A stretch of DNA of 64,000 nt from an uncultured Spirochaetota bacterium (GCA_903821875.1 CAIJMU010000124.1:62001-126000), one strand, 5' to 3'; shown: positions 3,083 to 53,240, counted from the stretch's first letter. Translations and numbers: made by a program. Notes: generated by a model not told the origin, from the letters alone.

Positions 3083-5680
3083 TCATTCCCCGGTCTCTCC
3101 GAGATAGGCCCGTTTCATGTCCTCGTTGGCGAGGAGCTTGTCCGCCCGATCGGTCATCACAATTGAACCAGTCTGGATGACATAGCCCCGATGGGCTATC
3201 GACAGGGCTTGCGTCGCATTCTGCTCAACCATGAAGATGGTCGTTCCCGTCTTGTTGATGCCGAGGATTATCTCGAAAACCTGCTCGACGAGGATGGGAG
3301 AGAGCCCCATCGACGGCTCGTCGAGGCAGAGGAGCCTAGGTTCCGTCATGAGAGCCCGCGCGATCGCGAGCATCTGCTGCTCGCCACCCGAAAGGGTTCC
3401 GGCCTTCTGCTGGCGCCGCTCCTTCAGTCTCGGGAATTGCTCGTATGCTCTCTCGATGCCACGCTTGACCATGGCGGGGTCGTTGCAGATATAGGCTCCG
3501 ACCTCGAGGTTCTCTTCGACGCTCAGCCTTGAGAAGATGCGCCTTCCCTCGGGTACGATCGCGATGCCGGAATTGATGATTTCGGGAGTTGGCCTGTTCT
3601 CGATCCGTTTGCCGTTGAATTCGATGCCGCCGTGCGTCGCTTTGACGTTGCCGATAATGGTCTTAATGGTCGTGGATTTTCCTGCGGCATTCGCCCCGAG
3701 GAGGCAGACGATCTCTCCCGGCCTGACCTCGAGCGATATTTCCTTAAGCACCCGGATCTGACCGTATTGGGCGTTGACACCCGTCAGGGCGAGTAGGGGC
3801 TTGCTGTCCGCACCGCTCGCCCTCTCACGCGCGATGACAACTTGATCATCGCGTCGTTTTCCGAGGTAGGCTTCGATGACTTCGGGGTTCGCCTGGATCT
3901 CATGTGGTGTCCCGTCGGCCAGCTTCTCGCCCTTGTTCATCACAACTATGCGATCGGAGATGTTCATGACGACCGACATCTGATGCTCGACGAGGACGAT
4001 GGTGTAGCCACGGCGGCGGAGCTCGGCAATGTGCTGGGTTATTTCATTGATCTCGCCCATGTTCATGCCGGCGGCCGGCTCGTCGAGGAGGAGGAGCTTG
4101 GGCGCCAGGGCGAGGGCTCGCGCGATTTCGACGCGGCGTCTGTCGGCGTAATTCAAGGTCGAAACGAAATCGTCCTTGCGCGAAAGGAGCTTGGGGCCGA
4201 AGAAGGCGAGGTGACGCGCGGCCTCGAGCTCGCCTTCTGCTTCGGCCTTCCTTACGCGAGGAGGTTGGATCACCGCCCCGCCCAGCATGACCTTGAGCCG
4301 CGGGTGCAGGCCGACCATCACGTTATCGAGGACCGAGAGCTGGGGAAAAACGCGGATGTTCTGGAAGGTGCGGGCGAGCCCCTTCCTTGCGACCTGGTAG
4401 GCAGTCTTCCCGACGAGTTCCTCGCCGTAGAACCGGACGCTTCCGCTGTCCGGCTTGTACATCCCCGTGACCAGGTTGAAGAGCGTGGTCTTGCCGGCCC
4501 CGTTCGGGCCGATGATACTGAGTATCTCCCCCTTCCTCACGTCGAAGGAGACGTCCGTCACGGCCCTGATGCCGCCGAAGGCCTTTGTCAAATTCCTCAC
4601 ACTTAGTGCGATTTCCGTTCCAGGTCGCAGGGTCGCGGGGTGCCTGTCCCTTTCCCTGGCTTCCTCGGGGAGGATGTCCTCTACCCTGATAGAACTCTTG
4701 CGCGGCTTGGCAATGAGGATGCCAGTCGGCCGGAAGCGCATCATCAGAAGGATGATCGTGGAATAGAGGATCATGCGGTAGATGCTGTAGTCGCGGAGGA
4801 CCTCGCCGAGGGTAACAAGGAGGGCTGCCCCAAGAAGGGCGCCAAGGGGGTTCCCCGTCCCCCCGAGGACGATCATGCAATAGATGTTGACCAGCTGGTC
4901 CATGTTGAAGACTTCAGGGAAGACCGACTGCTGCCATGCGGCGAAGAGGACGCCCGCGATGCCGGCGGCTGAGGCCCCCACGATGAAGGCAAGGAGCTTG
5001 TACATCGGGGGATTGATTCCCATGCAGCTAGCCGCTGTCTCATCATCGCGGATTGCCGCCCAGGCACGACCGATCCTTGAGTAGCGGATGCGGTAGGTTG
5101 CGATCATGACAATGAGGGCGAAGAAGCCGATGAGGAAGTAGTACGCGTGCGAGCTGTCGAAGACGAAGCCGAAGATCTTGACGGGGTCGATCCGGACGAT
5201 GCCGTTTGGCCCGTTCGTGATGTTGACGGGCTTGTCGAGGTTGAGGAGGAGGAGCCGCGTAATCTGCGCAAAACCCATGGTGGTGATCGCGAGGTAGTCA
5301 CCGCGCAAGCGGAGGCTCGGCAGGCCGATGATCAGGCCCGTGAAGGCAGCTACGAACATCGCGAATGGCATGAGAATCCAGAACGATACGTGCATATTGT
5401 GGAGCGGCGAGGCCAGGAGGGCGTAGCTGTAGGCTCCCATGGCGTAGAAGGCCGTGTAGCCCATGTCGAGGACGCCCGCGAGGCCGACGACGAAGTTGAG
5501 GCCCAGTCCCAGCAGCGTATACAGGAGGATCGTGCCGCCGATGCGGACGATGTACCCGTTTTCGACTGCGGCAGGAAAGGCAACGAAGATGACGGCGAGC
5601 GCTACCCACCAGACGCGAGGATCGATGCGGCCCACTGACGCGACCATTCGCGAGGCTACGGCCTTGAGAGTGTTTGGCAT
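3083..5680 (-). CDS. livM/livG/livF: LivM-LivG-LivF triple fusion: branched-chain amino-acid ABC permease plus two ATPases
   Basis: A single 865-residue frame. Residues 1-325 form a LivM permease with about eight to ten hydrophobic segments and the LivM loop GDYLAITTMGFAQITRLLLL (127-146). Residues 356-607 are a LivG ATPase: Walker A GPNGAGKTT 391-399, signature LNYADRRRVEIARAL, Walker B LLLLDEP 529-535. Residues 628-863 are a LivF ATPase: Walker A GANAAGKST 662-670, LSGGEQQ 763-769, Walker B LCLDEP 784-789. The three are normally separate proteins. The junctions are hydrophilic linkers of about 20-30 residues with no stop. It lies 10 nt downstream of livH, with livK further upstream, giving a complete importer for branched-chain or related amino acids. 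LivG has a degenerate signature sequence, as is common for that subunit. Confidence 0.93.
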   Translation of the reverse strand: MPNTLKAVASRMVASVGRIDPRVWWVALAVIFVAFPAAVENGYIVRIGGTILLYTLLGLGLNFVVGLAGVLDMGYTAFYAMGAYSYALLASPLHNMHVSFWILMPFAMFVAAFTGLIIGLPSLRLRGDYLAITTMGFAQITRLLLLNLDKPVNITNGPNGIVRIDPVKIFGFVFDSSHAYYFLIGFFALIVMIATYRIRYSRIGRAWAAIRDDETAASCMGINPPMYKLLAFIVGASAAGIAGVLFAAWQQSVFPEVFNMDQLVNIYCMIVLGGTGNPLGALLGAALLVTLGEVLRDYSIYRMILYSTIILLMMRFRPTGILIAKPRKSSIRVEDILPEEARERDRHPATLRPGTEIALSVRNLTKAFGGIRAVTDVSFDVRKGEILSIIGPNGAGKTTLFNLVTGMYKPDSGSVRFYGEELVGKTAYQVARKGLARTFQNIRVFPQLSVLDNVMVGLHPRLKVMLGGAVIQPPRVRKAEAEGELEAARHLAFFGPKLLSRKDDFVSTLNYADRRRVEIARALALAPKLLLLDEPAAGMNMGEINEITQHIAELRRRGYTIVLVEHQMSVVMNISDRIVVMNKGEKLADGTPHEIQANPEVIEAYLGKRRDDQVVIARERASGADSKPLLALTGVNAQYGQIRVLKEISLEVRPGEIVCLLGANAAGKSTTIKTIIGNVKATHGGIEFNGKRIENRPTPEIINSGIAIVPEGRRIFSRLSVEENLEVGAYICNDPAMVKRGIERAYEQFPRLKERRQQKAGTLSGGEQQMLAIARALMTEPRLLCLDEPSMGLSPILVEQVFEIILGINKTGTTIFMVEQNATQALSIAHRGYVIQTGSIVMTDRADKLLANEDMKRAYLGETGE

Positions 5681-5690
5681 ACTCTATGTC

Positions 5691-6620
5691 CTAGACTTTC
5701 ACGGGCACTTGCTCGCCCAGGAGGCCGGCTGGCTTGAAGATCAGGAGGATGATAAGCATCGAGAAGGCTATGACGTCCTTGTAGACGGGGGAGATGAAGG
5801 CGACACCGAGGCTCTCGACAAGTCCCAGGAGGATACCACCGAGCATCGCGCCTCGGATGTTGCCGATGCCGCCCAGGACGGCCGCCGTAAAGGCCTTCAT
5901 ACCGGCCGAGAAGCCCATGTAGAAGTCGATCTGGGTGTAATACATCCCAACCAGGACGCCGCCTGCCCCTGCGAGGGCCGAGCCGACCAGGAAGGTGGTC
6001 GAGATCACCCGATTGACGGAAATGCCCATGAAGGATGCGGCCTCGCGATCCTGCGCGGTCGCGCGCATCGCCTTGCCGGTCTTGGAGTGGCGGATGAAAT
6101 TGTCGAGTCCGATCATGAGCGCGAAGGAAACGGATATGACGAGGATCCTGATGAAGGAGATGGTCGCCGGACCCACTGTGATCTGCCAGCTGATCGGGAT
6201 GAGGAGCTGGGTTGCGTAGACCTTGGATCGTGCGCCCATCGTGAGGACGACCAAATTCTGGAGGAAGATCGAGACCGAGAGCGCGCTGATGAGGGGGGCA
6301 AGCCTGGGAGCGTTCCGGAGCGGCCGGTAGGCGAACCACTCGATACCGACGCCAAGGGCCGAGGTTCCTGCCATCGCGACCACAATCATCAGTATTATGA
6401 TGATGACGGGGCTCGCGATGATCGCTGCGCCATTCATGAATGCGCCAAGCACGCCCCATCCTATGAAGGCTCCTATCATGAAGACCTCGCCGTGGGCGAA
6501 GTTCAGCATTTCAAGGGTGCCGTAGACCATGGAGTAGCCGAGCGCTATGAGCGCGTACACGCTTCCCAGCGTAAGACCGTTCACAAGCTGTTGCGGAATC
6601 TGGGCCCATATTTCTTCCAC
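5691..6620 (-). CDS. livH: Branched-chain amino-acid ABC transporter permease LivH
   Basis: A 309-residue integral membrane protein beginning MEEIWAQIPQQLVNGLTLGS and continuing YALIALGYSMVYGTLEMLNFAHGE (split here), the hallmark N-terminal region of LivH. Later segments include RATAQDREAASFMGI and AAVLGGIGNIRGAMLGG, also family-typical. It forms the inner-membrane channel with the LivM domain of the downstream fusion. The gene lies between livK (78 nt upstream, with a stem-loop in the gap) and the fused livMGF (10 nt downstream). Length and topology are normal. Confidence 0.92.
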   Translation of the reverse strand: MEEIWAQIPQQLVNGLTLGSVYALIALGYSMVYGTLEMLNFAHGEVFMIGAFIGWGVLGAFMNGAAIIASPVIIIILMIVVAMAGTSALGVGIEWFAYRPLRNAPRLAPLISALSVSIFLQNLVVLTMGARSKVYATQLLIPISWQITVGPATISFIRILVISVSFALMIGLDNFIRHSKTGKAMRATAQDREAASFMGISVNRVISTTFLVGSALAGAGGVLVGMYYTQIDFYMGFSAGMKAFTAAVLGGIGNIRGAMLGGILLGLVESLGVAFISPVYKDVIAFSMLIILLIFKPAGLLGEQVPVKV

Positions 6621-6652
6621 CAGGGTCTCCTTCCCGGAATGAACCGGCGGCT

Positions 6653-6690
6653 AAAAGTCCCGGGGCGGGGGTTTGACCACTCTCCCCGGG
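6653..6690 (-). terminator. Attenuating stem-loop between livK and livH
   Basis: CCCGGGG and CCCCGGG arms (6684-6690 and 6659-6665) form a GC-rich stem with an 18-nt loop. On the minus strand it is followed by ACTTTT. It begins 9 nt past the livK stop. Partial termination here would explain the usual excess of binding protein over permease. The short T-run suggests it is leaky. Confidence 0.55.
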
Positions 6691-6698
6691 CAGATTCC

Positions 6699-7862
6699 TT
6701 ACTTGGTTACCTGGACGGCCTTGAGCTGGACGAAATCGTCTCCCTTGACCTGTACGACAAAGATCGCGCTTCCCATGAGATCACCCTTCGCGTCGAAGGA
6801 GATGGGAACGCCGAGAACGCCCTTGAAGTCCTTGGTGGCGTTCACGGCCGCGAGGACGGCCTTGCGGTCTACCTTGCCGTTCTTCACGCCGGCTTTGGCG
6901 ATGCCTGCGAGCAGCACGTTCGCGGCTTCGTAGCTCTGGCCCGAGTACATGGAGAGGGCGCCGTATTTTTTCTCGAAATTGGCCACGAAATCCTTGGCTT
7001 CGGGAACGGACTGGATGGTCGGCCCGATGCTCGTAGCGTAAACGCCTTCAGCGGCGCCGCCTGAACCCTTGATCAACTCGTCCTTTTCGCGGATGCCGTC
7101 GCCGCCCATGATCGCGGTCTTGATGCCCATCCCGGCGAGCTGTTTGATGATGGTCGCGGCCTGGGCCGGACTGGGAATCGCGAGGTAGAGGAGTTCAGGC
7201 TTGTTGGCCTTGATCTTCGTGAGGATGGCTGAGAAGTCCTTGTCGTCCGAGGTGATCTGCGCGCGGGCGATCTTGTCCACGCCCAGCTTCTTGAGATTCT
7301 TCTCGACCTCGTCGGCGAGGCCCTGTCCGTAGGTCCCCTTGTCGTCGATTATGTAGACGCTTTTAGCCATGATGTCATTCACGATGAAAGACGCGGCGGC
7401 TGGCGCCTGGTCGTCGTCGCGGGGACAGACGCGGTGCATGACCTTATAGCCCTGTTCGGTCAGGCTCGGATTGGTCCCCGACTGGGTTATGAGTGTAATG
7501 CTGTTTTTCTCGAGGATCGGGAGCGCGGCGACGACACCCGAGCTCGTCATTGGACCGATGACGCCCACTAGGGCGGGATCGGAGGCGAATTTTTCAGCGA
7601 CTGCCGCGGCCTTGGCGGGGTCGGCAGCGTCATCGCCCTCGACCACTTCGACTTTCATGCCCTTGAGCTGGCCCGAGGCATTGAACTCTTCAACGGCCAT
7701 CTTGATGGCGTTGAGGGAGTCAAGCCCGATCTTGGAGAGCTGACCCGTGAAGGGACCGGCCGCTCCGATCTTGACGACGTTCGGCTTGGCCGGGCCGCAG
7801 CCCGCTAAGGCGACAACGAGCGCGAAAGCAAGGCCGATAACGAAAAACCTAGTAATCCTCAT
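6699..7862 (-). CDS. livK: Branched-chain amino-acid substrate-binding lipoprotein LivK
   Basis: A 387-residue periplasmic-binding-fold protein. The N-terminus MRITRFFVIGLAFALVVALAGC is a lipoprotein signal with the lipobox ALAGC, so the mature protein is probably membrane-anchored. The KIGAAGPFTGQLSKIG start of the mature domain and later VIGPMTSSGVVAALP and VYIIDDKGTYGQGLADE are typical of the type 1 amino-acid-binding family. The ATG at 7862 has AAGGAGG five bases upstream; the longer frame to 7964 adds 34 residues without a signal-like character and is rejected. It is the first gene of livK-livH-livMGF. Confidence 0.92.
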   Translation of the reverse strand: MRITRFFVIGLAFALVVALAGCGPAKPNVVKIGAAGPFTGQLSKIGLDSLNAIKMAVEEFNASGQLKGMKVEVVEGDDAADPAKAAAVAEKFASDPALVGVIGPMTSSGVVAALPILEKNSITLITQSGTNPSLTEQGYKVMHRVCPRDDDQAPAAASFIVNDIMAKSVYIIDDKGTYGQGLADEVEKNLKKLGVDKIARAQITSDDKDFSAILTKIKANKPELLYLAIPSPAQAATIIKQLAGMGIKTAIMGGDGIREKDELIKGSGGAAEGVYATSIGPTIQSVPEAKDFVANFEKKYGALSMYSGQSYEAANVLLAGIAKAGVKNGKVDRKAVLAAVNATKDFKGVLGVPISFDAKGDLMGSAIFVVQVKGDDFVQLKAVQVTK

Positions 7863-11968: not shown

Positions 11969-13135
11969 ATGAAGATAGCCTGGATAACGAGGGCCGCCGC
12001 TTTCACCGGCGGAGCTGAGCGCCATATCGCCGATGTCGTTTCGCTGCTCGCCGAGCGTGGAGCGTCTAACTATCTGCTCTACGAGCTGGACGCCCCGATG
12101 GATCCCGCCTTTGTTTCCCTCTTTTCCGGAGCCTTCCCGCAGGTCGAGCTAGCCCGCCAGCTCGAATCCCTCGCTCCCGACGTGATCTATGTCCACCAGG
12201 TCTCAGGCCGACGGACCCTCGAGGTTATCGCCGATACCGGCATCCCCTCGCTGCGCTTTTTCCATGATCACGCTCCCTTCTGCCTCCACGTCCATAAATA
12301 CACGACTATCGGGCGCCGCAGCTGCTCGCGCGTCCTGGGGCCCTACTGCAGCTTTCCCTGTCTCGGACCCGTCAACAGGCGCAGCGGCTTCCCCCCGGTC
12401 TCGTTCCGGACCTTAGGGGCGGCGAGGGCTGAGCTTCGGGCCAACATGCGCCTGACCGCCAGCGCCGTCGGTTCGGTCCACATGAAGGACCACCTGGTAG
12501 CCCATGGCTTTTCTCCAGCCGCCGTACGGGTCCTGCCCATGTTCACGAAGCTGCCGGACCAGGATCCGCCCGAGGCGAGGGAGGGCGGGCTCCTCCTCTT
12601 CGTCGGAGCCCTCCTCCGGGGCAAGGGACTTGATGTCCTTCTGTCGGCGCTGGCGAAGCTCGGCCCGGAATGCCGCCTCAGGGTCGCCGGATCGGGACAT
12701 CAGGAGGGCATGTTCAGGGAGCAGGCTGCGCGCCTGGGAGTGGCGGAGCGGGTGGAGTTCCTCGGACGGATCGGTCGCTCGGAGCTCGACACCCAGTACA
12801 GGGCTGCCTCCTGCGTCGTCGTGCCCTCGCGCGAGCCAGAGACCTTCGGCCTCGTGGGCCTCGAGGCCTTCCGTCACGCGACGCCTGTGGTTGCCGCACG
12901 GGTGGGGGGCATCGGCGATTGGCTCCGGGAAGGCAAGACCGGCTATGGGTTTCCCTCGGGAGACGCGGAGGCCTTGGCCGCTGTCCTTCGCCGGCTCCTC
13001 GACGACCCCGAGGCTGCCCTCGCCACGGGCAGGGCAGGGAAGGAGCTTCTCTTGGCCTGCTTTACTCCTGAACGCCACGCTACCGCCCTCATGGACCTTC
13101 TCGGCATTGTGATCCGGTCAAGGGGTCAGTCATGA
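11969..13135 (+). CDS. Glycosyltransferase family 4
   Basis: A 388-residue GT-B glycosyltransferase. The N-terminal half has the donor-independent start IAWITRAAAFTGGAERH and a cysteine-containing HDHAPFC...C...CSFPC segment (about residues 108-133), seen in a subset of GT4 enzymes. The C-terminal half has LLFVGALLRGKGLDVLL and EPETFGLVGLEAF, the E-x7-E donor-sugar motif. It transfers a sugar from a nucleotide-sugar at the cytoplasmic face of the membrane; the sugar and acceptor are unknown. It is the first of five coupled genes, and its stop overlaps the next start as ATGA. Relative to flanking genes the operon is strikingly rich in G and C at third positions. Confidence 0.87.
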   Translation: MKIAWITRAAAFTGGAERHIADVVSLLAERGASNYLLYELDAPMDPAFVSLFSGAFPQVELARQLESLAPDVIYVHQVSGRRTLEVIADTGIPSLRFFHDHAPFCLHVHKYTTIGRRSCSRVLGPYCSFPCLGPVNRRSGFPPVSFRTLGAARAELRANMRLTASAVGSVHMKDHLVAHGFSPAAVRVLPMFTKLPDQDPPEAREGGLLLFVGALLRGKGLDVLLSALAKLGPECRLRVAGSGHQEGMFREQAARLGVAERVEFLGRIGRSELDTQYRAASCVVVPSREPETFGLVGLEAFRHATPVVAARVGGIGDWLREGKTGYGFPSGDAEALAAVLRRLLDDPEAALATGRAGKELLLACFTPERHATALMDLLGIVIRSRGQS

Positions 13136-14343
13136 TGCGCTTCGGACGCTTTACGCAAAGGGGCGGGGACGCAGTCGAGGCCCGAATCCGGGACGTGGTC
13201 GTCGAGGGCGGAGAGATCGCCCGTTCGATCCTTCCCCCTGGTTCCTTCCGCTGTCTCGCCCTCATGGGCGGCTATGGCCGGGGCGAGGGCGGGGTCGAGG
13301 TAACCGGCGGTCAGGAACGACCCCACAACAACCTCGACTTCCTCCTTGTTACCACTGGCCCCTGGAAGCGCAGGACCGAGGAGCTCAGGAAGTCGCTGGG
13401 CGAGGCTCTCAGGCCCCTGGCTGAGCGCGCGGGCATCGGCATCGACGCTGGAGCCACCTCGGACGCTGCCCTCCTGCGCGCCCCCTGCCGGGTCATGTGG
13501 TACGACGTGCGCTTCGGCCACCAGACCATCCTTGGTGACCAGGGCTTTCTACCCTCCCTCGGGCGCTTCACGGTGGACCGCATCCTGTCCGACGACATCC
13601 GCGACCTCCTGGTAAACCGCGGCACCCTCCTCGTCATCAACGACGCGGTGGCGGCCCTGCCGATGCCCGATCCAGCAGCCTGGAAGGCCCTCGTCCGCCA
13701 CGCCGTCAAGGCTGTCCTGGGCTACGGGGACGCACTCCTCTACTGGCGTGGCGCCTACCACTGGAGCTATGCCGAGCGTCAGCGCCGTATGGCGGCGCGG
13801 GACGACGTGGGCGAGGACTTCCGTAAGCTCTACGACTCTTCCATGGAGTTCCGCTTCCGCCCCGACTACGCAGAATGGGAGGGCAGGGACCTCAAGGCCT
13901 GGCTCGGCGGGATCCGGAAGGCGGTTGAACCCGTGCACCTCGATGTCGAGGGTCTCCGCTGCGGGATGAGGGGGCAGGGATGGAAGGCCTATCCCGCCGC
14001 CGCCCTGTCCAAGGGCCTCGCCGACGGGCTCAGGAGCCCCCGGGAGGCGGCTCGGCGCGCCAAGGCCCTCATCAGCTCGCGCGGATCCCTCTCCTCGGCT
14101 GGCTTCGGTCTTGCACCCTCGCTGCTGCCGATGCGAGACCTCCTCGGCATCGTCTTCCCGGTGATCGCCTACGACCTGGCCGAGCCGGAGTTCCGCTGCC
14201 TCGCCCGCGCCGTCGTGGGAGGGCCCGACGATCCGGAGGGCCTGCGCCTGGCCTTCCTCAGGGCCTGGGGTGTCCACGGGGACCCCAATTTCGAGGCTGC
14301 AGCACGCAAGCTCGGCATTGAACTCCGGGGAGGTCACGCATGA
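13132..14343 (+). CDS. Uncharacterised protein with nucleotidyltransferase-like N-terminus
   Basis: A 403-residue protein I do not recognise as a named family. Residues 43-72 read LALMGGYGRGEGGVEV...PHNNLDFLLVT. This resembles the G-[GS]-x-G-R-G-E ... D-x-D/N-x-D pattern of the polymerase-beta-type nucleotidyltransferase fold (aminoglycoside nucleotidyltransferase or GlnE style), though the first acidic position is replaced by NNLD. No signal peptide or membrane segment is apparent. It overlaps the glycosyltransferase before it and the deacetylase after it by 4 nt each. A role in activating or attaching a non-sugar substituent (for example a nucleotidyl or phospho-alcohol group) to the glycan is an inference. 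It could also be catalytically dead. Confidence 0.6.
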   Translation: MMRFGRFTQRGGDAVEARIRDVVVEGGEIARSILPPGSFRCLALMGGYGRGEGGVEVTGGQERPHNNLDFLLVTTGPWKRRTEELRKSLGEALRPLAERAGIGIDAGATSDAALLRAPCRVMWYDVRFGHQTILGDQGFLPSLGRFTVDRILSDDIRDLLVNRGTLLVINDAVAALPMPDPAAWKALVRHAVKAVLGYGDALLYWRGAYHWSYAERQRRMAARDDVGEDFRKLYDSSMEFRFRPDYAEWEGRDLKAWLGGIRKAVEPVHLDVEGLRCGMRGQGWKAYPAAALSKGLADGLRSPREAARRAKALISSRGSLSSAGFGLAPSLLPMRDLLGIVFPVIAYDLAEPEFRCLARAVVGGPDDPEGLRLAFLRAWGVHGDPNFEAAARKLGIELRGGHA

Positions 14344-15143
14344 TCTGCCTGACCGGCGACCTCCACCATATGAGCCTCAAGACCGGCAACCAGAAGCACA
14401 GCGACATCTCCGAGCTCAGGACCGCCCAGCTCTACCTGGATCTTCTCAGGGATGCGGGGGTCAAGGTGACCTTTTTCGTGTCGGGGCTCTGCTTCGTGGA
14501 GGAGTGGGAGGACCTGAAGCCCATCGTGGAGGATCCCCTTGTCGAGCTTGGCGGCCACAACTACGACTGCTTCAAGCCCGAACTCTGGCACCGTGCCTGC
14601 AAGAAGCTCCTGGGCAGCTACAACGGGCCGAAGTGGTACCAGTCCCTCGACGCGCGGCGCACGATCAAGGCTGCCCGTGCGCACACCGGCAAGACCATCA
14701 CGGTGTGGCGCAACCACATGTACATGCACGGCCCGAATACGGAGACGGTCCTCGCCGGCAACGGTGTGGTCCTCGTGTCCGACGGGGTCAGGAAGGACGC
14801 CGTCGGTCCGGTCCGGGACCCGCGGGGGATCTGGTCCTTCCCCATCAACGTCATCCCCGACCACGAGCACATCTACCACGCCGAGCGCAGCGTCGAGTGG
14901 GTCGCCTGGTGGCAGAAAAGGTACAATTGGACGGATGATTTCGGGCCGGAGTCCTATCCTGTCTCGGAGTGGGCCGATCTCGTGCTGGCAAGGCTCAAGG
15001 AGAACGAGGGGCGGGGAGTGGTCTCGAACGTCATCATCCACCCCATCACCATGTACCTGGCCGACCGCTTCGAGAGCGCGCGCAGGATCATCGACTACCT
15101 GGCCACCCGCGAGTGCATCCATATCTCGGAGGCCCTGCCATGA
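14340..15143 (+). CDS. Polysaccharide deacetylase-like (NodB-fold) protein
   Basis: A 267-residue protein with degenerate versions of the NodB homology motifs: LTGDLHHMS at the N-terminus in place of TFDDG, VTFFVSG (about 42-48), ELGGHNYD (about 69-76), WRNHMYMHG (about 122-130) and VIIHPITMYLADRF near the C-terminus. Family members hydrolyse N- or O-acetyl groups from glycans using Asp-His-His-bound metal; here Asp7, His74 and the later His-Pro could serve. It has no signal peptide, so it would act on a cytoplasmic or lipid-linked intermediate. It is coupled by ATGA at both ends to the unknown protein and to the family 2 glycosyltransferase. Confidence 0.75.
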   Translation: MICLTGDLHHMSLKTGNQKHSDISELRTAQLYLDLLRDAGVKVTFFVSGLCFVEEWEDLKPIVEDPLVELGGHNYDCFKPELWHRACKKLLGSYNGPKWYQSLDARRTIKAARAHTGKTITVWRNHMYMHGPNTETVLAGNGVVLVSDGVRKDAVGPVRDPRGIWSFPINVIPDHEHIYHAERSVEWVAWWQKRYNWTDDFGPESYPVSEWADLVLARLKENEGRGVVSNVIIHPITMYLADRFESARRIIDYLATRECIHISEALP

Positions 15144-16069
15144 CGGTCCCGGAGGGAGGGACTTCGGTTCCGCGCTGTACCGTCATCCTGCGCTGCAAGA
15201 ACTCGGAGCGTGAGATCGGCATTGCCCTCGCGGCCCTCTTCTCGCAGGATTTCAGGGATTTCGAGCTGCTCGTCATTGACTCGGGCTCCACCGACCGTAC
15301 CCTGGAGATCGTCGCCGCCTGGCCCCACCGTCTCATCAGGATTGCCCCCGGGGACTACGTGCCGGGCAGGGTCCTCAACCGCGGCGCCTCCGAGAACGCC
15401 TCCCCCGTCTGCGTCTTCCTCAATTCAGATTGCGTGCTCCTGTCGCCGGGTTCCCTGGGGAGCCTTGTTGGTGCCTTCGACGACCCGGCTGTCATGGCGG
15501 CCTTCGCACGGCAGGTAGCCCGCCCCGAGGCCTGGCCCTGGGTGCGCCGCGAGTACCGCGAGAGCTTTCCCGAGGCCGGGAAGGCGGCGCCCTGGATCGA
15601 GCTTTCCCTCCCCTTTGCCGCCATGCGCCGCTCCGCCTGGGAGGAGCAGCCCTTCTACGACGAGGCCTGGGGCTCCGAGGACACCGCCTGGGGACATCGA
15701 GCCAGGGAGCGGGGCTGGGGCATCGCCTATGTGCCCGGAGCCCTCGTGATGCACAGCCACAACTACACCTTCAAGCAACTCTTTGGCCGCCGCTTCATCG
15801 AGGGCGAGGCAGACAGTTTCATCTACGGCAAGGTAGACCGACCCTTCCAGATAGCCCGGCGCGCGATCGGCAACATCCTCCGCGACTGGGCTGCCGATGT
15901 CCGGGAGGGCAGACTCGCCGATATTCCCGTCGCCCCGCTCCGGCGCTTCGTCGATGCCCGGGCCTATCTCAAGGGTGCCCGGCACGGCCGACGGCGCCGC
16001 GAGACAGGCGAGGCCGACATCAGCCACGGCCAGAAGACGGTCCTCGACCGTCACGTCTCCAAGAGGTGA
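15140..16069 (+). CDS. Glycosyltransferase family 2
   Basis: A 309-residue GT-A enzyme: TVILRCKNSEREIGIALAAL at the N-terminus, LLVIDSGSTDRTLEIV, CVFLNSDCVLLSPGS carrying the metal-binding D-x-D equivalent (NSD), and WGSEDTAWGHRARERGWGI with the ED catalytic-base motif. The C-terminal HSHNYTFKQLFGRRFIEGEAD resembles rhamnosyl- or galactofuranosyl-type GT2 enzymes. The start is the ATG overlapping the deacetylase stop (ATGA); the longer frame to 14969 is an out-of-frame shadow of that gene. It adds a sugar to the product of this operon, with specificity unknown. Confidence 0.87.
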   Translation: MTVPEGGTSVPRCTVILRCKNSEREIGIALAALFSQDFRDFELLVIDSGSTDRTLEIVAAWPHRLIRIAPGDYVPGRVLNRGASENASPVCVFLNSDCVLLSPGSLGSLVGAFDDPAVMAAFARQVARPEAWPWVRREYRESFPEAGKAAPWIELSLPFAAMRRSAWEEQPFYDEAWGSEDTAWGHRARERGWGIAYVPGALVMHSHNYTFKQLFGRRFIEGEADSFIYGKVDRPFQIARRAIGNILRDWAADVREGRLADIPVAPLRRFVDARAYLKGARHGRRRRETGEADISHGQKTVLDRHVSKR

Positions 16070-16074
16070 AAAGC

Positions 16075-17223
16075 ATGGGAACCCTGTCGCTCTTTGTGTT
16101 CATCGATGCCTTCGGCTGGGAGCTCGTGCGGAACCGCTCCTTCCTTGAGCCTGAGGCGCGCATCAAGAAGCCCCTCGAAACGGTCTTTGGCTACAGCTGC
16201 ACCTGCGACCCCACGATCATCACCGGCGTGCCGCCGCGCGAGCACGGCCATTTTTCCTTCTTCGCCTACGACCCGGTAAAGTCGCCCTTCAAGCCGCTCC
16301 AGGCCCTGCGCGTGCTGCCCCGGAGCCTCGTGGACAGGGGCAGGGTCAGGAACAAGATTTCCCAGTTTGTACAGAAAGCCTACGGATATACCGGCTACTT
16401 CCAGCTCTATGCGGTGCCCTTCAAGTACATCCACCTCTTCGACTACAGCGAAAAGCGGGACATCTACCTTGAGGGCGGTATCAACGGTGGCCAGCCGAGT
16501 GTCTTTGTCCTCCTCGACAAGGCGGGCATCCCCTATTTCCGTTCCGACTGGCGCAAGGGAGAGAAGGAGGCTGTGGCCGACCTCAGTGCCGCCCTTGCTG
16601 GGGGACGACCCCGACTGGCCTACCTCTACCTCGCCAAGATGGACGCCCTCCTCCACGCCAAGGGGACCCAGGCAGCAGAGGTCGGGGCGATGATCGACGG
16701 CTACCAGGACACGCTGCGGGCTGTCCTCGCGGATGCACGCAAGTCATATGACGAGGTTCGGCTCTTTGTTTTCTCCGACCATGGCATGACCGACATCGTC
16801 CGCTCGAGCCCTCTCATGGCGGAGATCGATGCTACGGGACTCGTCTTCGGCAGGGACTACGCCGCCGTCTACGATTCGACCATGGCGCGGTTCTGGTTCC
16901 TCCGCGAGGGCTCGCGGGCTACGATCGAGGCGATCCTGGGGAAGAGCAAGGACGGACGCATCCTCGACAACGCGACCCTCCACGACTGGGGCATCGATTT
17001 CGCCGACCGCAGGTACGGGGAGCTCTTCTTTCTCCTCCACCCCGGCGTCCTCCTCTGCCCGAGTTTCATGGGAACCAAGCCGCTGGCCGGCATGCACGGC
17101 TACGATCCCGGCTCTCCCGGATCGCGCGCCTCCTTTATCTCGACGGTCGAGCTGGAAAAGGCTCCGGAAAAACTCGCCGACCTCTTTTCCCTCATGAAAC
17201 GCGAGAGCGGCCTCGGAGTCTGA
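16075..17223 (+). CDS. Alkaline-phosphatase-superfamily protein (phosphodiesterase/sulfatase-like)
   Basis: A 382-residue protein with an alkaline-phosphatase-fold signature: LFVFIDAFGWELV (6-18, first metal Asp11), CDPTIITGVPPREHGHFSF (44-62, nucleophile Thr region and the PxxHG motif), and RLFVFSDHGMTDIV with the SDHGM metal site. Members are type I phosphodiesterases, phosphoglycerol or phosphoethanolamine transferases and phosphoglycerate mutases. No signal peptide or membrane segment is visible, which argues against a classical periplasmic transferase. GAGGTGA precedes the ATG by 5 nt, and the gene follows the GT2 gene after 5 nt. It ends the five-gene glycan operon, and a strong terminator follows. 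Confidence 0.75.
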   Translation: MGTLSLFVFIDAFGWELVRNRSFLEPEARIKKPLETVFGYSCTCDPTIITGVPPREHGHFSFFAYDPVKSPFKPLQALRVLPRSLVDRGRVRNKISQFVQKAYGYTGYFQLYAVPFKYIHLFDYSEKRDIYLEGGINGGQPSVFVLLDKAGIPYFRSDWRKGEKEAVADLSAALAGGRPRLAYLYLAKMDALLHAKGTQAAEVGAMIDGYQDTLRAVLADARKSYDEVRLFVFSDHGMTDIVRSSPLMAEIDATGLVFGRDYAAVYDSTMARFWFLREGSRATIEAILGKSKDGRILDNATLHDWGIDFADRRYGELFFLLHPGVLLCPSFMGTKPLAGMHGYDPGSPGSRASFISTVELEKAPEKLADLFSLMKRESGLGV

Positions 17224-17264: not shown

Positions 17265-17305
17265 AAGATCGCCCCGTGCCAGCTTGTCTGGCACGGGGCG
17301 GTCTT
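17265..17305. terminator. Bidirectional terminator between glycan operon and enolase
   Basis: A perfect 12-bp core stem, GCCCCGTGCCAG and CTGGCACGGGGC, with loop CTTGT. It extends through flanking AAGATC and GGTCTT to about 18 bp with one wobble pair. The A-rich side serves as the T-tract for minus-strand transcripts from enolase; the plus-strand side ends in TCTT. Confidence 0.8.
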
Positions 17306-23588: not shown

Positions 23589-23939
23589 TCAGGCCTGCTC
23601 GAGGGCAGCGATGGCCTCGGCCCGTGTTCCGTGGATGTTGAGTATCTTGTGGAGGCGGACGAGTTCGAAGAGGACCTGTATGGGCTTGGCCACACAGCAG
23701 ACCCTGAGTTCTCCGCCCCGCTCGCCGAGGTTGCGCACGAGGGAAAGCATGACGCCAAGCCCGGCTGAATCGATGAACCTCACTCCGGTCAGGTCGAAGA
23801 CCACCTTCAGCGCAGACTGCGCGAGGGGGCCTACCTGGGTCCGAAAGCTTGCGGAGTTGCCCGCATCCAAGTGATCGATCGCGAGTGTCAGGATGAGGAC
23901 ATCCCCTGAATTCTCTCCACGTATCATTGGCTCATTCAT
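23589..23939 (-). CDS. STAS-domain anti-sigma-factor-antagonist-type protein
   Basis: A 116-residue single-domain STAS protein. VVFDLTGVRFIDSAGLGVML (46-65) contains DSAGLG with the phosphorylatable serine, and RGGELRVCCVAKPIQVLFEL is the second conserved half. Such proteins are switched by RsbW-like kinases and PP2C phosphatases and bind a partner only when unphosphorylated. GAGGAG precedes the ATG. It lies 115 nt beyond the last exopolysaccharide gene on the same strand, separated by a near-perfect palindrome, so it may be co-transcribed with or regulated alongside that operon. The kinase/phosphatase at 38.6 kb is a candidate modifier. Confidence 0.87.
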   Translation of the reverse strand: MNEPMIRGENSGDVLILTLAIDHLDAGNSASFRTQVGPLAQSALKVVFDLTGVRFIDSAGLGVMLSLVRNLGERGGELRVCCVAKPIQVLFELVRLHKILNIHGTRAEAIAALEQA

Positions 23940-23992
23940 CTTCGACTCCTCTTTGAAAAGGCGGAAGCGCAGTATCCCCCCGCAGAATGCGC

Positions 23993-24012
23993 GTGACGAC
24001 TAATAGTCGCAC
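23993..24012. repeat. Near-perfect palindrome upstream of the STAS gene
   Basis: CGACTA-A-TAGTCG (23997-24009) flanked by GTG and CAC gives a 9+9 bp dyad broken by one extra base, 54 nt upstream of the STAS ATG. No T-run follows. Symmetry and size suit a repressor or activator operator. A short direct repeat of GCAA units lies next to it at about 24023-24037. Confidence 0.45.
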
Positions 24013-24054
24013 AACTGGGGGATGCAAGCAAGCAAGCCGGAGTGTGCAACTCGC

Positions 24055-24816
24055 TCACCTTGTCCTCGTCGTGGAAAGGGCGGGATCCTCGGCTATATAT
24101 ACTGCATCGGAGCGGGGCTTGAAAAAGGCGCTGCCCTCGACGACCGCCTCCTCAATGTGGAGTTTTTCGCCTATGAGGGTCCAGGGCAGGGCGACGGAGT
24201 GGGCAAAATACGTGCCGGCACCTATGACGGAGCCCCGTTCCACAGAAGCGAAGGGACCGATCTCTGCGCCGGCGCCGATTTCCGCCCCCTCCCCGATGAA
24301 GAGGGGCGGGATGAGTCTGGCGCTGGGATGGATCCTCACATGGTGCGAAAGCCGCAGGCCCTGCGCTGTTTCCCTTCCCGAGGGGACGAAACCCGGGACC
24401 TTGCCGCCGAGGGTGAGGGCGACGCAATCGAGGTAGGCTACGAGGTCCAGGGCTCCCGGGAAGTTCCAGGAACCGTCGCCTCTTCCAGGCGGGGGAGGGG
24501 CGAGGGGATCGAAGACCTCGTCGGCTCCCAGTTCGGTTGAAAGCGATTCGGCGAAGGAGACATGATCGGTACCCGTCGGGCAGCGGTGGTAGGAGATGCT
24601 CGCACCCCAGCGCTCGCCCTCCTCGAGGAAGGTGGAAAAGCGCTCGGGCTCGTCCCGGAGGACAACAGCGATGTCCTTCCTGCCGGAGTCGGAAAGGTAT
24701 TCCACGTAGCGCTGGATGAGGGGCCGCCCCGCTATCGGCAGCAATTCCGCCGGTATCGTCACCTGGACGCCCCCGGTCCCGAGCCTGCGCCCGAGGGCGA
24801 GGAGTATGGTCTTCAT
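24055..24816 (-). CDS. Sugar-nucleotidyltransferase-like protein with left-handed beta-helix tail
   Basis: A 253-residue protein. Residues 1-100 resemble a shortened NDP-sugar pyrophosphorylase (TILLALGRRLGTGG... LLPIAGRPLIQRYVEYL), but the usual G-x-G-T-R signature is scrambled. Residues 160-235 contain hexapeptide-type repeats (IHPSARLIPPLFIGEGAEIGAG..IGPFASVERGSVIGAG, given in parts) of a left-handed beta-helix. GlmU-type and mannose-1-phosphate guanylyltransferases share this arrangement. The poor signature means activity is uncertain; it may be a regulator or a divergent pyrophosphorylase. It starts inside the WecG-family stop (4-nt overlap) and is the last gene of the exopolysaccharide operon. 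Confidence 0.7.
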   Translation of the reverse strand: MKTILLALGRRLGTGGVQVTIPAELLPIAGRPLIQRYVEYLSDSGRKDIAVVLRDEPERFSTFLEEGERWGASISYHRCPTGTDHVSFAESLSTELGADEVFDPLAPPPPGRGDGSWNFPGALDLVAYLDCVALTLGGKVPGFVPSGRETAQGLRLSHHVRIHPSARLIPPLFIGEGAEIGAGAEIGPFASVERGSVIGAGTYFAHSVALPWTLIGEKLHIEEAVVEGSAFFKPRSDAVYIAEDPALSTTRTR

Positions 24817-25574
24817 GGCTTGCTTCCTCTTCGGCGCCGCGCGATGACGCGGGCGATGAACTCGAAATTTCCGATGATGTAGCGACGCCACATCCGGCCC
24901 GGCTCCTGGTAGAGGCGGAAGAGCCACTCGATGCCGAGCCTTCGCATCCACTGGGGCGCACGAGGGATGGTACCAGAGAAAAAATCGAAGAGTCCACCGA
25001 CAGCGAGGGCAACCCGCGCTCCCGTGGCGTCGCCACAACGGTCTATCCAGAGTTCCTGCCGTGGCACGCCCATGCCGACGAAGACGACATCGGCCCCGAA
25101 AAGCTTGATAGCCTCGATCACCTCGGAGTCCTGCGAGAAGAATCCGACAGTCCAGCCGGTCAGTACGACACCCGGCCAGCGTTGGGCTACCGATTCCACG
25201 AGCTTGGCCAGGACGCCGCGCTTGGCGCCGACGAAAAAGACGCGGAGCCCCTCCTTGGCGAGGGCTGACATGAGGAGGGGGAAGAGGTCGGTGCCGTTGA
25301 CGTTGGCTTCGATGGGTGTGCCCTGGATTTTGCCGGCCAGCTTCACCCCCGAGCCGTCGGGAAAGACGTAGTCGGCGCGACATAGGGCCTCGAAGTAGGC
25401 GGGAACCCTGGCGGCCACGTTGCCGCAGTGGGCGTTGAGGAAAAAGATACGGGCGCAGTTCCGTCCCTCCGTGGCCGGTTTTTTCTGGCCCCGGGCAAAG
25501 GACATAATTGCTTCGATCGCCTCGTCCATGCCGCATGAGTCGACGGGGACATTGAGCATGTGGAGGCGTTCCAT
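24813..25574 (-). CDS. WecG/TagA/CpsF family glycosyltransferase
   Basis: A 253-residue GT26 enzyme. FFLNAHCGNVAA (44-55), ADYVFPDGSGVKLAGKIQG (68-86), VNGTDLFPLLM (92-102), LRVFFVGAKRGV and VFVGMGVPRQELWI are family signatures. It transfers a sugar (ManNAc, ManNAcA or glucose in characterised members) to a polyprenyl-diphosphate-linked acceptor at the inner membrane. The ATG begins inside the stop of the sugar-phosphate transferase gene (TGATG). Together with that initiating transferase it supplies early steps of the repeat unit. Confidence 0.92.
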   Translation of the reverse strand: MERLHMLNVPVDSCGMDEAIEAIMSFARGQKKPATEGRNCARIFFLNAHCGNVAARVPAYFEALCRADYVFPDGSGVKLAGKIQGTPIEANVNGTDLFPLLMSALAKEGLRVFFVGAKRGVLAKLVESVAQRWPGVVLTGWTVGFFSQDSEVIEAIKLFGADVVFVGMGVPRQELWIDRCGDATGARVALAVGGLFDFFSGTIPRAPQWMRRLGIEWLFRLYQEPGRMWRRYIIGNFEFIARVIARRRRGSKP

Positions 25575-26938
25575 CAGTAGGCTCCCTTGCCGGTCAGCAC
25601 GGCGGGGATGGTCGCTATCAAAATCCTGAGGTCCAGGATGATGTTCCGCTGCTCGAGGTACTCGACGTCGAGCTCGACCTGGCGGGGGAAGGGGATGTCG
25701 GAGCGGCCGCTGACCTGCCAGATGCAGGTAAGGCCCGGGACGGCCTCGAGGCGGCGGCGGTCGGCGGAGCTGTAGAGGGCCACCTCGCGGGGGACGGGTG
25801 GGCGGGGCCCGACGAGGGTGAGATCACCGCGGAGGATGGACCAGAGCTGGGGCAGCTCGTCGAGGCTGTACTTCCTGATTACCCGACCAATTGGTATGAC
25901 CCTGGGGTCGCGCTTCATCTTGAAGGTGATGCCGCCGGTCATCTCGTTCTTCGCCAGGAGCTTGTCCTTGAGCTTGTCGGCGTCCATGACCATGCTTCGG
26001 AATTTGGGAAAGCGGAAGTGCCTGCCGTGGCGGCCTACCCGCGTCTGTGTGTAGATCAAGGGACCGGGATCGCTCATCCAGATGAGTAATCCAACGAGGG
26101 CGTAGATCGGCCAGACTATCGATAAAAGGAGGGAGACGAGCCCCACGTCCATGGCACGCTTGGTCGTGGGGTAGAGGGTGTCGGCGACAAAGGCCCTCCA
26201 GGCGAGGCCGAGGCGGTTCGGGGGACGGGCCCGGGTCAGGCGCTCCTCGAGGGCGCGCGCTGCCTCGAGGCGGGAGCGGGCTTCCATGCGCTCCTCCATG
26301 CGTGCGAGGGAGCCCGTGGGAGACGCCGCGGCTGCTGCAGCAGCGCCTGCCGCGCCAGGCACCTTGGTGGGGCCGGGTGCGCGGGCTGTAGCCTGGCGGT
26401 CGCCGCGGGCGTAGAAGGCGATCTTGGAGGCGAGGGCGGCGGGGCCCTCCTCGTCGTCGAGGGTGACGTCAGCCTGTCGCAGGGCTCCAGCCGACCAGGC
26501 AGCGTAGCGCGGAACGATGAGGCTTTCGTGGAGGAGGAGGGCTTCCACGCCGCCAGGTGCCCCGGCTTCCATGAGGAGGTCAGCCCAGCGGAGGAGGGAG
26601 AGGCGCTCCTCGACCTCGACGAACATGAGGGCGGAGACAGTCTCCCGGGCTTCCCGAAGCGCTGCGAGGGGACCGAGGATCGCTACAAGGTACGGTGCTT
26701 CGGAGGCGGCCTGCCGGCGCAGTTCGGCGAAAAAAGCCACCGTATCGAAGGCCTCCGGCTGGTCGGCGGGGAGGGCCAGCCCCTGGCTTTCGGGCGTCGC
26801 GGCAGGCGGCCTGGCGAAGTCGTAGGCAGACACTATCCCGCCGGCAGGCAGTCCCAGTTCCTTCGATAGTTCGGCAGCGATCTCTGCGAGCCGGGCAGCA
26901 CGGCTGCCACCCAGTCCTATTACCTTCCCTGTTCTCAT
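25574..26938 (-). CDS. Undecaprenyl-phosphate sugar phosphotransferase with unusual N-terminal region
   Basis: A 454-residue protein. The C-terminal 200 residues are a bacterial sugar transferase: KRAMDVGLVSLLLSIVWPIY (membrane hairpin), YTQTRVGRHGRHFRFPKFRSM, IGRVIRKYSLDELPQLWSI, LRGDLTLVGPRPPVP and GLTCIWQVSGRSD. It starts the repeat unit by moving sugar-1-phosphate to undecaprenyl phosphate. Instead of the four helices and CoA-binding-like domain of WbaP/WcaJ proteins, residues 1-185 are a soluble-looking region, then an Ala-rich linker (about 200-220) and a charged helix (about 222-250). The N-terminal region is unrecognised. Four-nt overlap with the upstream glycosyltransferase. Confidence 0.9.
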   Translation of the reverse strand: MRTGKVIGLGGSRAARLAEIAAELSKELGLPAGGIVSAYDFARPPAATPESQGLALPADQPEAFDTVAFFAELRRQAASEAPYLVAILGPLAALREARETVSALMFVEVEERLSLLRWADLLMEAGAPGGVEALLLHESLIVPRYAAWSAGALRQADVTLDDEEGPAALASKIAFYARGDRQATARAPGPTKVPGAAGAAAAAAASPTGSLARMEERMEARSRLEAARALEERLTRARPPNRLGLAWRAFVADTLYPTTKRAMDVGLVSLLLSIVWPIYALVGLLIWMSDPGPLIYTQTRVGRHGRHFRFPKFRSMVMDADKLKDKLLAKNEMTGGITFKMKRDPRVIPIGRVIRKYSLDELPQLWSILRGDLTLVGPRPPVPREVALYSSADRRRLEAVPGLTCIWQVSGRSDIPFPRQVELDVEYLEQRNIILDLRILIATIPAVLTGKGAY

Positions 26939-28086
26939 TGTCGCTTCCTTTCGGCAGTCGATCGCAGCTGCGCGAGGGTTGCCTTCGCGGTCGAGTCCCA
27001 GCCGGAGGCTGCGGCGCGCGCGAGGCCAGCCTGGCGCATGCTTCCGAGGAGGCTACCGTCTGTGGCAGCCTCGAGGCTGGAGGAGATCGAGGCTTCGTCC
27101 TCGGGTTCGAAGTAACGGGCAGCGTCGCCGCCGACCTCGGGGAGCGAGGAGCAATTAGAGCAGAACACCGGCACTCCCGCCGCCATCGCCTCGAGGAGGG
27201 GCATCCCGAAACCCTCGAAGAGGGAGGGGAAAAAGAGGGCAGTGGCCCCACCGTAGAGGCCTGCAACGTCCTCGTTGGAGATAAAGCCGGTAAAGCGGAT
27301 GTCGGCCTTCGCTGGCGAGGCTTCCGCCTCGCGGTGGACCTGCTCGGCCCGGTCCCAGTCCTTGCCCGCCAGGACAAGGAGCATGGGCGACTGCGTGCGT
27401 CGCTTGAACTCCGCAAAGGCCCTGATGAGGCGCACATGGTTCTTGCCTGGATGCTCGATGCGGGAGATATAGAGGAAATAGGGAGCGCCTAGTCCGAACT
27501 TTTCGGCCACGGCAGGCGCTCCGGCCTTGCAGGCTTCGGGTGAAAAACGCGAGAGGTCCACACCGTGGGGAATCACCGTGATCCGCTCGGCCTTTGCGCC
27601 CGCCGATTCCACGGTGTCCTTTTTGGTGGCCTCGCTCACCGAGACGATCCTGTCGAGCCTCCGGATGAGGAAGGGCACAAACCACTTGATGTAGATCTCG
27701 TGGGAGAGGGGGTACTTCCCCGTCACGTGGAGGCTGGAAAGGTCGTGGACGGTGCCGACGACGGGGAGTCCGGCGGCAAAGGGCATGCGGCGGTTGGCTG
27801 CCGGAAAAAAGAGGAGGTCGAGCCTCTGGCTTTTCACGAAGCCGCGGAGGCCTGTCGCGTTCCAGAGGATGTTCTTCATTGCCGGTTCGGCCTTGCCGTC
27901 AGGGATGGCCTCGAGGGCGAAGCGCGGCGAGTGGGGGTCGTAGATGGCAAGGGCGGCCTGGCTCCCGAAGAGGAGGTACTCTTCGTCGCCCGGGAGCACT
28001 GCCAGTGCCTTGAGCAATTCAATGACATAGTGGCTGATGCCCGATTCGCCCCAGTCGCAGCCCGACACCGGTATTCCGATTTTCAC
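26935..28086 (-). CDS. Glycosyltransferase family 4 (exopolysaccharide cluster, third of three)
   Basis: A 383-residue GT-B enzyme: IGIPVSGCDWGESGISHYVI at the N-terminus, VGTVHDLSSLHV, RIVSVSEATKKDTVES and VIPHGVDLSRFSPE at the domain junction, then FLYISRIEHPGKNHVRLI and SLFEGFGMPLLEAMAAGVPV, the E-x7-E donor-binding motif. It resembles mannosyl- or rhamnosyl-type GT4 enzymes of capsule loci, but specificity cannot be read. Cytoplasmic or peripheral on the inner membrane. Four-nt overlaps link it to the genes on both sides. Confidence 0.9.
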   Translation of the reverse strand: MKIGIPVSGCDWGESGISHYVIELLKALAVLPGDEEYLLFGSQAALAIYDPHSPRFALEAIPDGKAEPAMKNILWNATGLRGFVKSQRLDLLFFPAANRRMPFAAGLPVVGTVHDLSSLHVTGKYPLSHEIYIKWFVPFLIRRLDRIVSVSEATKKDTVESAGAKAERITVIPHGVDLSRFSPEACKAGAPAVAEKFGLGAPYFLYISRIEHPGKNHVRLIRAFAEFKRRTQSPMLLVLAGKDWDRAEQVHREAEASPAKADIRFTGFISNEDVAGLYGGATALFFPSLFEGFGMPLLEAMAAGVPVFCSNCSSLPEVGGDAARYFEPEDEASISSSLEAATDGSLLGSMRQAGLARAAASGWDSTAKATLAQLRSTAERKRQ

Positions 28087-29345
28087 GATCCCCCCTTTGT
28101 GCTGCCACGTCTGGCTTCGATCGCTTCGTTGTAGATGGCGGAGACCCGGGCAGAGACCGCTTGCCAGGTGTAGTTCGCTTCCATGTCGCTGTGGCCCTGG
28201 CGGCTCAGGGCAGAGGCGAGGCCGGGCTCGGAGAGGAGCCGAAGGACAGCATTGGTGGCTGAGTCGACATCACCCGAGGGGAAGAGGAGGCCGTTGTCGC
28301 CGCTTTTCACGAAGGCGGGAATGCCCCCGACCTCCGAGGCTGCCAGGGGGAGGCCCGCTGCCCAGGCTTCCAGCGCGACGACACCGAAGGGCTCGTGCAC
28401 CGAGGGGAGGAGGAAGCAGTCGGCGGCCGCGTAGGCTGCGGCCAGCTCGCCATTGCCGTAGTCGAGCTGCCCGAGGAAATAGACAGCAGTGGAAAGGCCC
28501 AAAGCCCCGGCTTTTTCCCTGAGCTGGAGGAGGTAGTCCGGATTGGTGGCGGGTCCCGCCAGGGCGAGGACGGCTCCGGGGAGGCGTTCGCGGGCGCGCC
28601 TGAGGACGTCGATGGCGAGGGCCTGGTTCTTCTGCGGATCTATGCGACCGACGGTGAGGATGAGCTTAGCGCCCTGGGGAATGCCATACTTCCGGCGGAA
28701 CTCGAGGCCTGCTTCCTTAGGAGCGGAGAAGCGGCCCGGATCGACGCCGTTGGGCGTGAACTCGATGCGCTTACCGGGCATGAGCGTGCGGAGTTTTTCG
28801 GCCTCGAAGCGGTCGACGCAGAGGATGGCGTCGGCGTCTTCGACAACCCGGCGGCCTCCAAAGGCAAGACCGATCACCTTCCCCCACTCGAAGGCCTTTT
28901 TCGAGGCCTCAGCCAGGTCTTTCCTTTCCGACTCCGGGGCGCTCACGAGGCCTCCGTGGAGCTGGATCACGTAGGGGATGCCCCGCATCCGGGCAGCTGT
29001 GCGGACCAGTGCGCCAAGGCGCTTGCCGGTGTGGAGGTGGAATATTCCTGGATTGGGGAGGGCCAGGAGTTCGCGGAAGAGGCCGAAGGAGACGAGGTTT
29101 CCGCCCTTCCGGTCCATGCGCGCGCGGTCGTCTTTGGAAAGACCCCAATAGGGATAGAAATGCCTGAAACGCCTGACCTCGACCCCGTCGATGCTTTCTC
29201 GGTCGCCGCTGGCGAGGGCCATCGAGGTAAGGATGGAGGCCTCGTCCCCGCCCGCCATCTGCCGCCGGGCCAGCTCGAGCACGACCGTTTCGGTGCCGCC
29301 CCAGGCATCGCGAACAAACCTGCGGGGAATATGGACGATCCTCAT
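28083..29345 (-). CDS. Glycosyltransferase family 4 (exopolysaccharide cluster, second of three)
   Basis: A 420-residue GT-B enzyme. MRIVHIPRRFVRDAWGGTET opens the acceptor domain, followed by IFHLHTGKRLGALVRTAARM and DAILCVDRFEAEKL. The donor domain has FTPNGVDPGRFSAPKEA, LILTVGRIDPQKNQALAI and SVHEPFGVVALEAWAAGLPL with the E-x7-E motif. Slightly longer than its neighbour, with an insertion around residues 135-160. Specificity unknown. Four-nt overlaps with genes on both sides mean the frameshift in the upstream gene could lower its translation. Confidence 0.9.
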   Translation of the reverse strand: MRIVHIPRRFVRDAWGGTETVVLELARRQMAGGDEASILTSMALASGDRESIDGVEVRRFRHFYPYWGLSKDDRARMDRKGGNLVSFGLFRELLALPNPGIFHLHTGKRLGALVRTAARMRGIPYVIQLHGGLVSAPESERKDLAEASKKAFEWGKVIGLAFGGRRVVEDADAILCVDRFEAEKLRTLMPGKRIEFTPNGVDPGRFSAPKEAGLEFRRKYGIPQGAKLILTVGRIDPQKNQALAIDVLRRARERLPGAVLALAGPATNPDYLLQLREKAGALGLSTAVYFLGQLDYGNGELAAAYAAADCFLLPSVHEPFGVVALEAWAAGLPLAASEVGGIPAFVKSGDNGLLFPSGDVDSATNAVLRLLSEPGLASALSRQGHSDMEANYTWQAVSARVSAIYNEAIEARRGSTKGGS

Positions 29346-36141: not shown

Positions 36142-36148
36142 GCCATTC

Positions 36149-53210: not shown

Positions 53211-53240
53211 GTGTGCCTCCCCGCAGGGAGGCATCTTCCG

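Follow-up and report, generated by a model that had tools for sequence, protein, structure and literature searches.

A nucleotidyltransferase-fold protein in a five-gene cassette that is probably a relocated arm of a Wzx/Wzy-type exopolysaccharide locus in an uncultured Spirochaetota bacterium

In Vibrio, the Wzx/Wzy-type syp locus is devoted to a polymer and includes a stand-alone STAS protein, SypA, which controls biofilm (PMC4517449). The window analyzed here, a 64,000-nucleotide stretch of an uncultured Spirochaetota genome (GCA_903821875.1, CAIJMU010000124.1:62001-126000), similarly carries a locus at 23.6-36.2 kb in which a stand-alone STAS protein is encoded beside a phosphoglycosyl transferase, glycosyltransferases (GTs), Wzz, Wzx and Wzy. 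By analogy only, this STAS protein resembles the regulatory arrangement of syp. Unlike in syp, part of the pathway appears to be detached in the window and carries a CE4-like gene. This part is a five-gene operon at 11969-17223, hereafter the cassette, encoding a GT4, a nucleotidyltransferase-fold protein (NT), a NodB/CE4-like protein (NodB), a GT2 and an NPP-type phosphodiesterase (AP). We consider the cassette to be probably a relocated arm of the exopolysaccharide locus, which lies 6 kb away on the other strand. The NT/AP pair is, to our knowledge, not known from syp; the closest described relatives of the individual proteins are the AadA/ANT(9) adenylyltransferases for NT, the NPP/ENPP type I phosphodiesterases for AP and the NodB/CE4 deacetylases, including ArnD, for NodB.

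Five + strand open reading frames (ORFs) make up the operon. The GT4 (11969-13135, 388 aa; PF00534, 9.8e-35) comes first and is followed by NT (13132-14343, 403 aa; no Pfam match), NodB (14340-15143, 267 aa; PF01522, 1.1e-5, above the cut-off), the GT2 (15140-16069, 309 aa; PF00535, 3.8e-16), whose NSD and SED motifs are apparent in the family alignment, and AP (16075-17223, 382 aa; PF01663, 3.5e-15). A preliminary description made from the sequence alone had proposed a glycan operon here, and Pfam supports its GT4, polysaccharide deacetylase, GT2 and type I phosphodiesterase. It had all genes coupled by 4-nt overlaps, which is correct for three of the four junctions (ATGA at 13132, 14340 and 15140), but a 5-nt gap lies between GT2 and AP. 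Signal peptides were said to be absent, and inspection by eye indeed reveals neither an N-terminal signal nor a membrane segment in the operon proteins. The strong terminator attributed to the operon has to be reassigned: in the hairpin at 17270-17300 the T-tract lies on the - strand, which makes this hairpin the terminator of the convergent enolase gene, and a + strand terminator scan of the same interval found none. Finally, the operon itself lacks a flippase and a polymerase, as had been described, yet the window does encode a flippase-like protein and Wzy at 33.2-36.2 kb.

The relationship between cassette and locus emerges from three genomes of the same class (L013-L015), with counterparts assigned by reciprocal best hits. 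In these genomes, GT4, AP, GT2 and NT occur together with a STAS protein, a hexapeptide protein, WecG, a phosphoglycosyl transferase and GT4s; the operon GT4 is the reciprocal best hit of a GT4 within these loci (34-35%). In the window, the counterparts are split: GT4, AP, GT2 and NT are in the cassette, while the rest are found at 23589-30543, continuing into Wzz/Wzx/Wzy up to 36195. The window locus is missing AP, GT2, NT and that GT4, precisely the cassette genes other than NodB. In L015, the genes for STAS, AP, GT2, NT and the hexapeptide protein are consecutive, whereas in the window STAS adjoins the hexapeptide gene and the middle three are gone. Since the locus is without exactly the four genes that relatives hold inside it, the cassette is most likely its relocated arm, with NodB added. 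Neighborhoods elsewhere also connect these genes to polymer export: AP adjoins Wzy in seven genomes of the Myxococcota sample, STAS-GT2-NT-kinase-Wzy-Wzx are contiguous in L023 and L024, and exopolysaccharide genes adjoin a NodB-type cassette in L056, L057 and L059. We infer that the product is an exopolysaccharide, as well as the order of steps proposed below.

Pfam matches and reciprocal best hits identify the Wzx/Wzy gene set at 23.6-36.2 kb (phosphoglycosyl transferase, Wzy, Wzx and co-polymerase), entirely on the - strand. The STAS-domain protein is located at the end of the locus (23589-23939; PF01740, 6.1e-17, and reciprocal best hit), next to a hexapeptide-repeat, sugar-nucleotide-type protein (24055-24813; PF00132, 1e-8, and reciprocal best hits). 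Then come a WecG/TagA glycosyltransferase (24813-25574; PF03808, 6.9e-60), the phosphoglycosyl transferase, which is the initiating sugar transferase (25574-26938; PF02397, 2.1e-57), and two GT4s (26935-28086 and 28083-29345; PF00534, 2.7e-29 and 4.8e-36). Another GT4 (29342-30543) is divided over two overlapping ORFs in different frames (29342-29824 and 29791-30543), whose halves match one intact GT4 of relatives, pointing to a frameshift or assembly error. The Wzz-like polysaccharide co-polymerase with a P-loop domain (30540-33209, the upstream limit of the ORF not being fixed) is a reciprocal best hit to chain-length proteins; its matches to PF02706 and PF01656 are weak and both below the cut-offs. 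The Wzx-like flippase (33227-34753) has no Pfam match and was identified by a reciprocal best hit (26% over 507 aa) to L024 13597-15240, of which the L023 relative is 73% identical and matches PF01943 (8.3e-22). The Wzy-type polymerase/ligase (34750-36195) gives the sole PF04932 match found in the genome, the genome-wide uniqueness of Wzy and AP being based on two family searches. Outside the locus, a GH9-family glycosidase (50493-53465, - strand; PF00759, 2.7e-24) is a reciprocal best hit (24-32%) to GH9 proteins in relatives' loci, and an ORF at 37082-38497, examined for an outer-membrane export protein, has no Pfam match.

The order GT4-NT-NodB-GT2 is shared by the window and seven further genomes, which come from two other phyla, the three genome samples being taken as three different phyla. 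A first scan of genome contigs yielded two orthologous cassettes, in a Desulfomonile metagenome-assembled genome (MAG; L003) and a MAG labelled Anaeromyxobacter (L004). Profile searches added L054, L055, L056, L057 and L059, all from the phylum of L004. Most readable junctions of the recurring cassettes have stop/start overlaps (ATGA, GTGA, TTGA). This order, with overlaps, in other phyla is therefore not due to chance, and the neighborhood search proposed in the preliminary description confirms GT4-NT-NodB-GT2 as a conserved unit. AP occurs in all eight cassette genomes. The window and L054 have it adjacent; in G472, G501 and G673 it shares the contig at a distance of about 12-15 kb, and in G336, G337 and G666 it is on a different contig. 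A tblastn search of NT against plasmids and a NodB profile search against viral contigs returned no relatives, so nothing points to a phage or plasmid system. A weak match in G003 (E 6e-4) was discarded as it lies inside a helicase-like ORF. In L004, a matched NifH-like reductase gene and then apparently nitrogenase-like component genes (3347-7463, + strand) directly follow GT2, which is an unusual neighborhood.

NT carries the two motifs noted earlier, GGYGRGEG (residues 46-53) and NNLD (residues 66-69), as well as a third Asp (D105). It was also rightly called unrecognized, as no characterized family claims it: Pfam, NCBIfam and PADLOC gave no family match, and a PDB sequence search returned only chance matches. 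Among 11 members of the NT family, the best matches to Pfam nucleotidyltransferase profiles were PF18765 (E 0.15) and PF01909 (E 0.16), and the LicD profile remained unmatched at E up to 1. An AlphaFold2 model (11 sequences; pLDDT 83.4) aligns with AadA, ANT(9) and ANT(3)(9) at Z 13.1-13.3, with root-mean-square deviations of 3.3-3.7 over 213-225 residues, while unrelated folds reach only Z 6-7. As modelled, NT thus has a polymerase-beta/nucleotidyltransferase fold of the AadA/ANT(9) type (Z about 13), the fold for which a structure check had been suggested. It shares with AadA/ANT(9) this fold over residues about 3-278, the G-G/S loop, D69 and the third Asp, but differs in its low identity (11-13%), longer C-terminal part, lack of Pfam membership and glycan-locus setting. 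PADLOC matched none of the window proteins, and the fold matches to HalB/MNT were set aside as similarity of fold only.

The metal residues, to which the same suggestion extended, turned out differently. NT keeps the GG loop of the metal motif (hG[GS] followed by Dx[DE]) but fails Dx[DE]: the family rule is NDxD, and N67 replaces the first metal-binding Asp, so that NNLD is not a normal catalytic motif and sets the NodB-linked NTs apart from AadA/ANT(9). In the motif alignment, NNLD occurs in 8/8 NodB-linked NTs, and NDxD or DxE in 22 other family members. G47, R50, E52, D69 and D105 are conserved among the NodB-linked NTs, which all fall on one side of a branch with support 93/99. The change to NNLD was therefore probably one event rather than eight independent ones. 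Genome G336 has two NTs, one of the NodB-linked NNLD type (L003) and one of the NDLD type at a separate locus (L025).

AP scores 56.9 bits against PF01663 (cut-off 23) and keeps all metal ligands and the nucleophile (D11, S41 at the nucleophile position, D190, H194, D235, H236 and H341). Its profile matches in PDB include ENPP7 and Xanthomonas NPP (XacNPP), with which these positions align. ENPP6 and ENPP7, which cleave phosphocholine esters, are among the best, but other NPPs match about as well. AP may have the phospho-alcohol role that the preliminary description proposed. From its sequence it is predicted to be an NPP-type phosphodiesterase, differing from the described NPP/ENPP enzymes by its Ser at the nucleophile position, its apparently cytoplasmic location and its link to NT and an exopolysaccharide locus. 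The nucleophile Ser is lost in radical-SAM-fused and some other fused or distant AP copies.

The model of NodB has a CE4 fold (Foldseek best match 3rxz, E 4.6e-9, with many further CE4 matches), a likeness to NodB/CE4 deacetylases including ArnD that the PF01522 match shares; a PDB sequence search gave no match. The Asp + HxxxH metal motif, however, is not intact. The second metal His is Cys (Cys77) in all eight copies, giving HNxxC (HGYDC in L059), and TGDLHH stands where CE4 enzymes have TFDD. Because NodB is the most conserved member of the cassette (60-81% identity over eight genomes), its conservation suggests that it is functional, possibly with an unusual or different metal set. A search of 296 genomes of its own phylum found NodB only in this genome.

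The distribution of NT and AP ties the two together. NT is present in 19/282 genomes of L004's phylum, 6/297 of the Desulfomonile phylum and 4/393 of the window's own phylum, and the AP subfamily (E below 1e-47) in 17/282 and 7/297 genomes of the first two, with overlaps of 16 and 6. AP thus occurs in 16/19 NT genomes versus 1/263 others in L004's phylum (Fisher p 3e-22) and in 6/6 versus 1/291 in the Desulfomonile phylum (p 8e-12), although these values assume independent genomes and are made too small by shared ancestry, which counts against our interpretation. The three NT genomes without AP are those with a DxD-less NT (L067-L069). GT2-NT fusions exist in L060, L061 and L065, and NT-AP-GT2 follow in a row within radical-SAM or TPR megaproteins in L022 and L070. 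These megaproteins (L022 1-5112 and L070 1-9320, both - strand) combine B12-binding/radical SAM, NT, AP, GT2, TPR, SPASM and methyltransferase parts, and in both of them the AP part is without the Ser nucleophile. In the best explanation, NT and AP work together as a two-protein module, of which the chemistry is a guess. An APH-type small-molecule kinase is encoded immediately 3' of NT in Desulfomonile-class genomes (L023 7550-8476, +; L024 11338-12264, +; L025 1666-2592, -; L026 896-1822, +) and may give a clue to the NT substrate. A literature search returned nothing relevant on clusters of NT, Wzy and a phosphodiesterase.

In the proposed pathway, a lipid-linked repeat unit would be started by the phosphoglycosyl transferase and extended in the cytoplasm by the locus GTs together with the cassette GT4 and GT2. 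The CE4-like protein would probably take an acyl group off an amino sugar (de-N-acylation). NT would most likely place, or bind, a nucleotidyl or phosphoryl group on the repeat unit, and AP would hydrolyze or transfer the resulting phosphodiester before the modified unit is flipped and polymerized. NT and AP would thus most likely install and edit a phosphate-containing substituent, the chemistry being guesswork, as is catalysis by NT in the NNLD lineage. A bolder version, which we regard as doubtful, is a new two-enzyme phosphorus modification in which the ANT-fold enzyme nucleotidylates a sugar and the NPP-type enzyme converts the diester to the final substituent, the NodB-linked lineage having reworked its NT metal site on gaining the CE4-like protein.

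Several observations weigh against a relocated arm acting within the exopolysaccharide pathway. The cassette is apart from the locus and on the opposite strand, so the two may not be co-regulated. The NodB-type cassette of G666 is far from any Wzy, even though its AP adjoins one. N67 in NT and Cys77 in the CE4 motif make catalysis by NT and NodB uncertain. Moreover, the window NT is far closer to the Desulfomonile copy (72-73%) than to same-class copies (24-28%), with L004 at 54-55%; the whole cassette may therefore have arrived together from elsewhere, and the glycan on which it acts could be a modified or different one. The preliminary description had proposed a modified lipid- or protein-linked oligosaccharide, which would be self-standing and outside the nearby exopolysaccharide. 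Separate transcription of the cassette would suit this, as would the PMT_2-like membrane protein after the cassette in G666 and the NifH-like gene, rather than polysaccharide genes, after GT2 in L004. We nonetheless judge it unlikely, given that four of the five cassette genes have counterparts inside relatives' Wzx/Wzy loci, that the window locus is without exactly these functions, and that exopolysaccharide genes do adjoin the NodB-type cassette in three genomes.

A different objection, compatible with the exopolysaccharide role, contests the NT chemistry only. The NodB-linked NT might be a non-catalytic, substrate-binding or complex-forming subunit, leaving all phosphorus chemistry to AP. 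The loss of the first metal Asp in every NodB-linked NT, with Dx[DE] kept in the 22 other members, makes this a substantial possibility, all the more as a fold can persist without activity. We still lean the other way because the five residues listed above remain conserved in the clade and because AP is kept in all eight genomes, while the three otherwise motif-less NTs sit in AP-less genomes. Alternatively, NT could be a LicD-like transferase using a CDP-alcohol, with AP removing or transferring the phospho-alcohol. The downstream kinase in L023-L026 and the ENPP6/7 matches of AP hint at this, but it seems improbable with adenylyltransferases as the nearest folds, no LicD match, no kinase in the window operon or locus, and other NPPs matching AP about equally. 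Sub-threshold NCBIfam scores of GT4 to MshA (95 bits, cut-off 462) and of GT2 to MftF (67 bits, cut-off 280) might suggest that the operon decorates not a polymer but a small molecule, as happens when mycothiol or mycofactocin is made. Such scores are so far below the curated cut-offs that MshA- and MftF-like functions were rejected, and with polymer-export genes in the neighborhoods this idea is hardly credible.

With the cassette taken as a relocated arm of the exopolysaccharide locus, the analysis brings forward an unnamed family with an aminoglycoside-adenylyltransferase fold. Co-occurrence, adjacency and gene fusion tie this family to an NPP-type phosphodiesterase in at least three phyla, and it is also tied to exopolysaccharide loci. 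The residues of interest are N67, D69 and D105 in NT and S41 in AP. If the NT/AP pair modifies the repeat unit, it would represent an undescribed modification step, and the polymer would be predicted to carry substituents, either phosphate or nucleotide, that escape routine sugar analysis.

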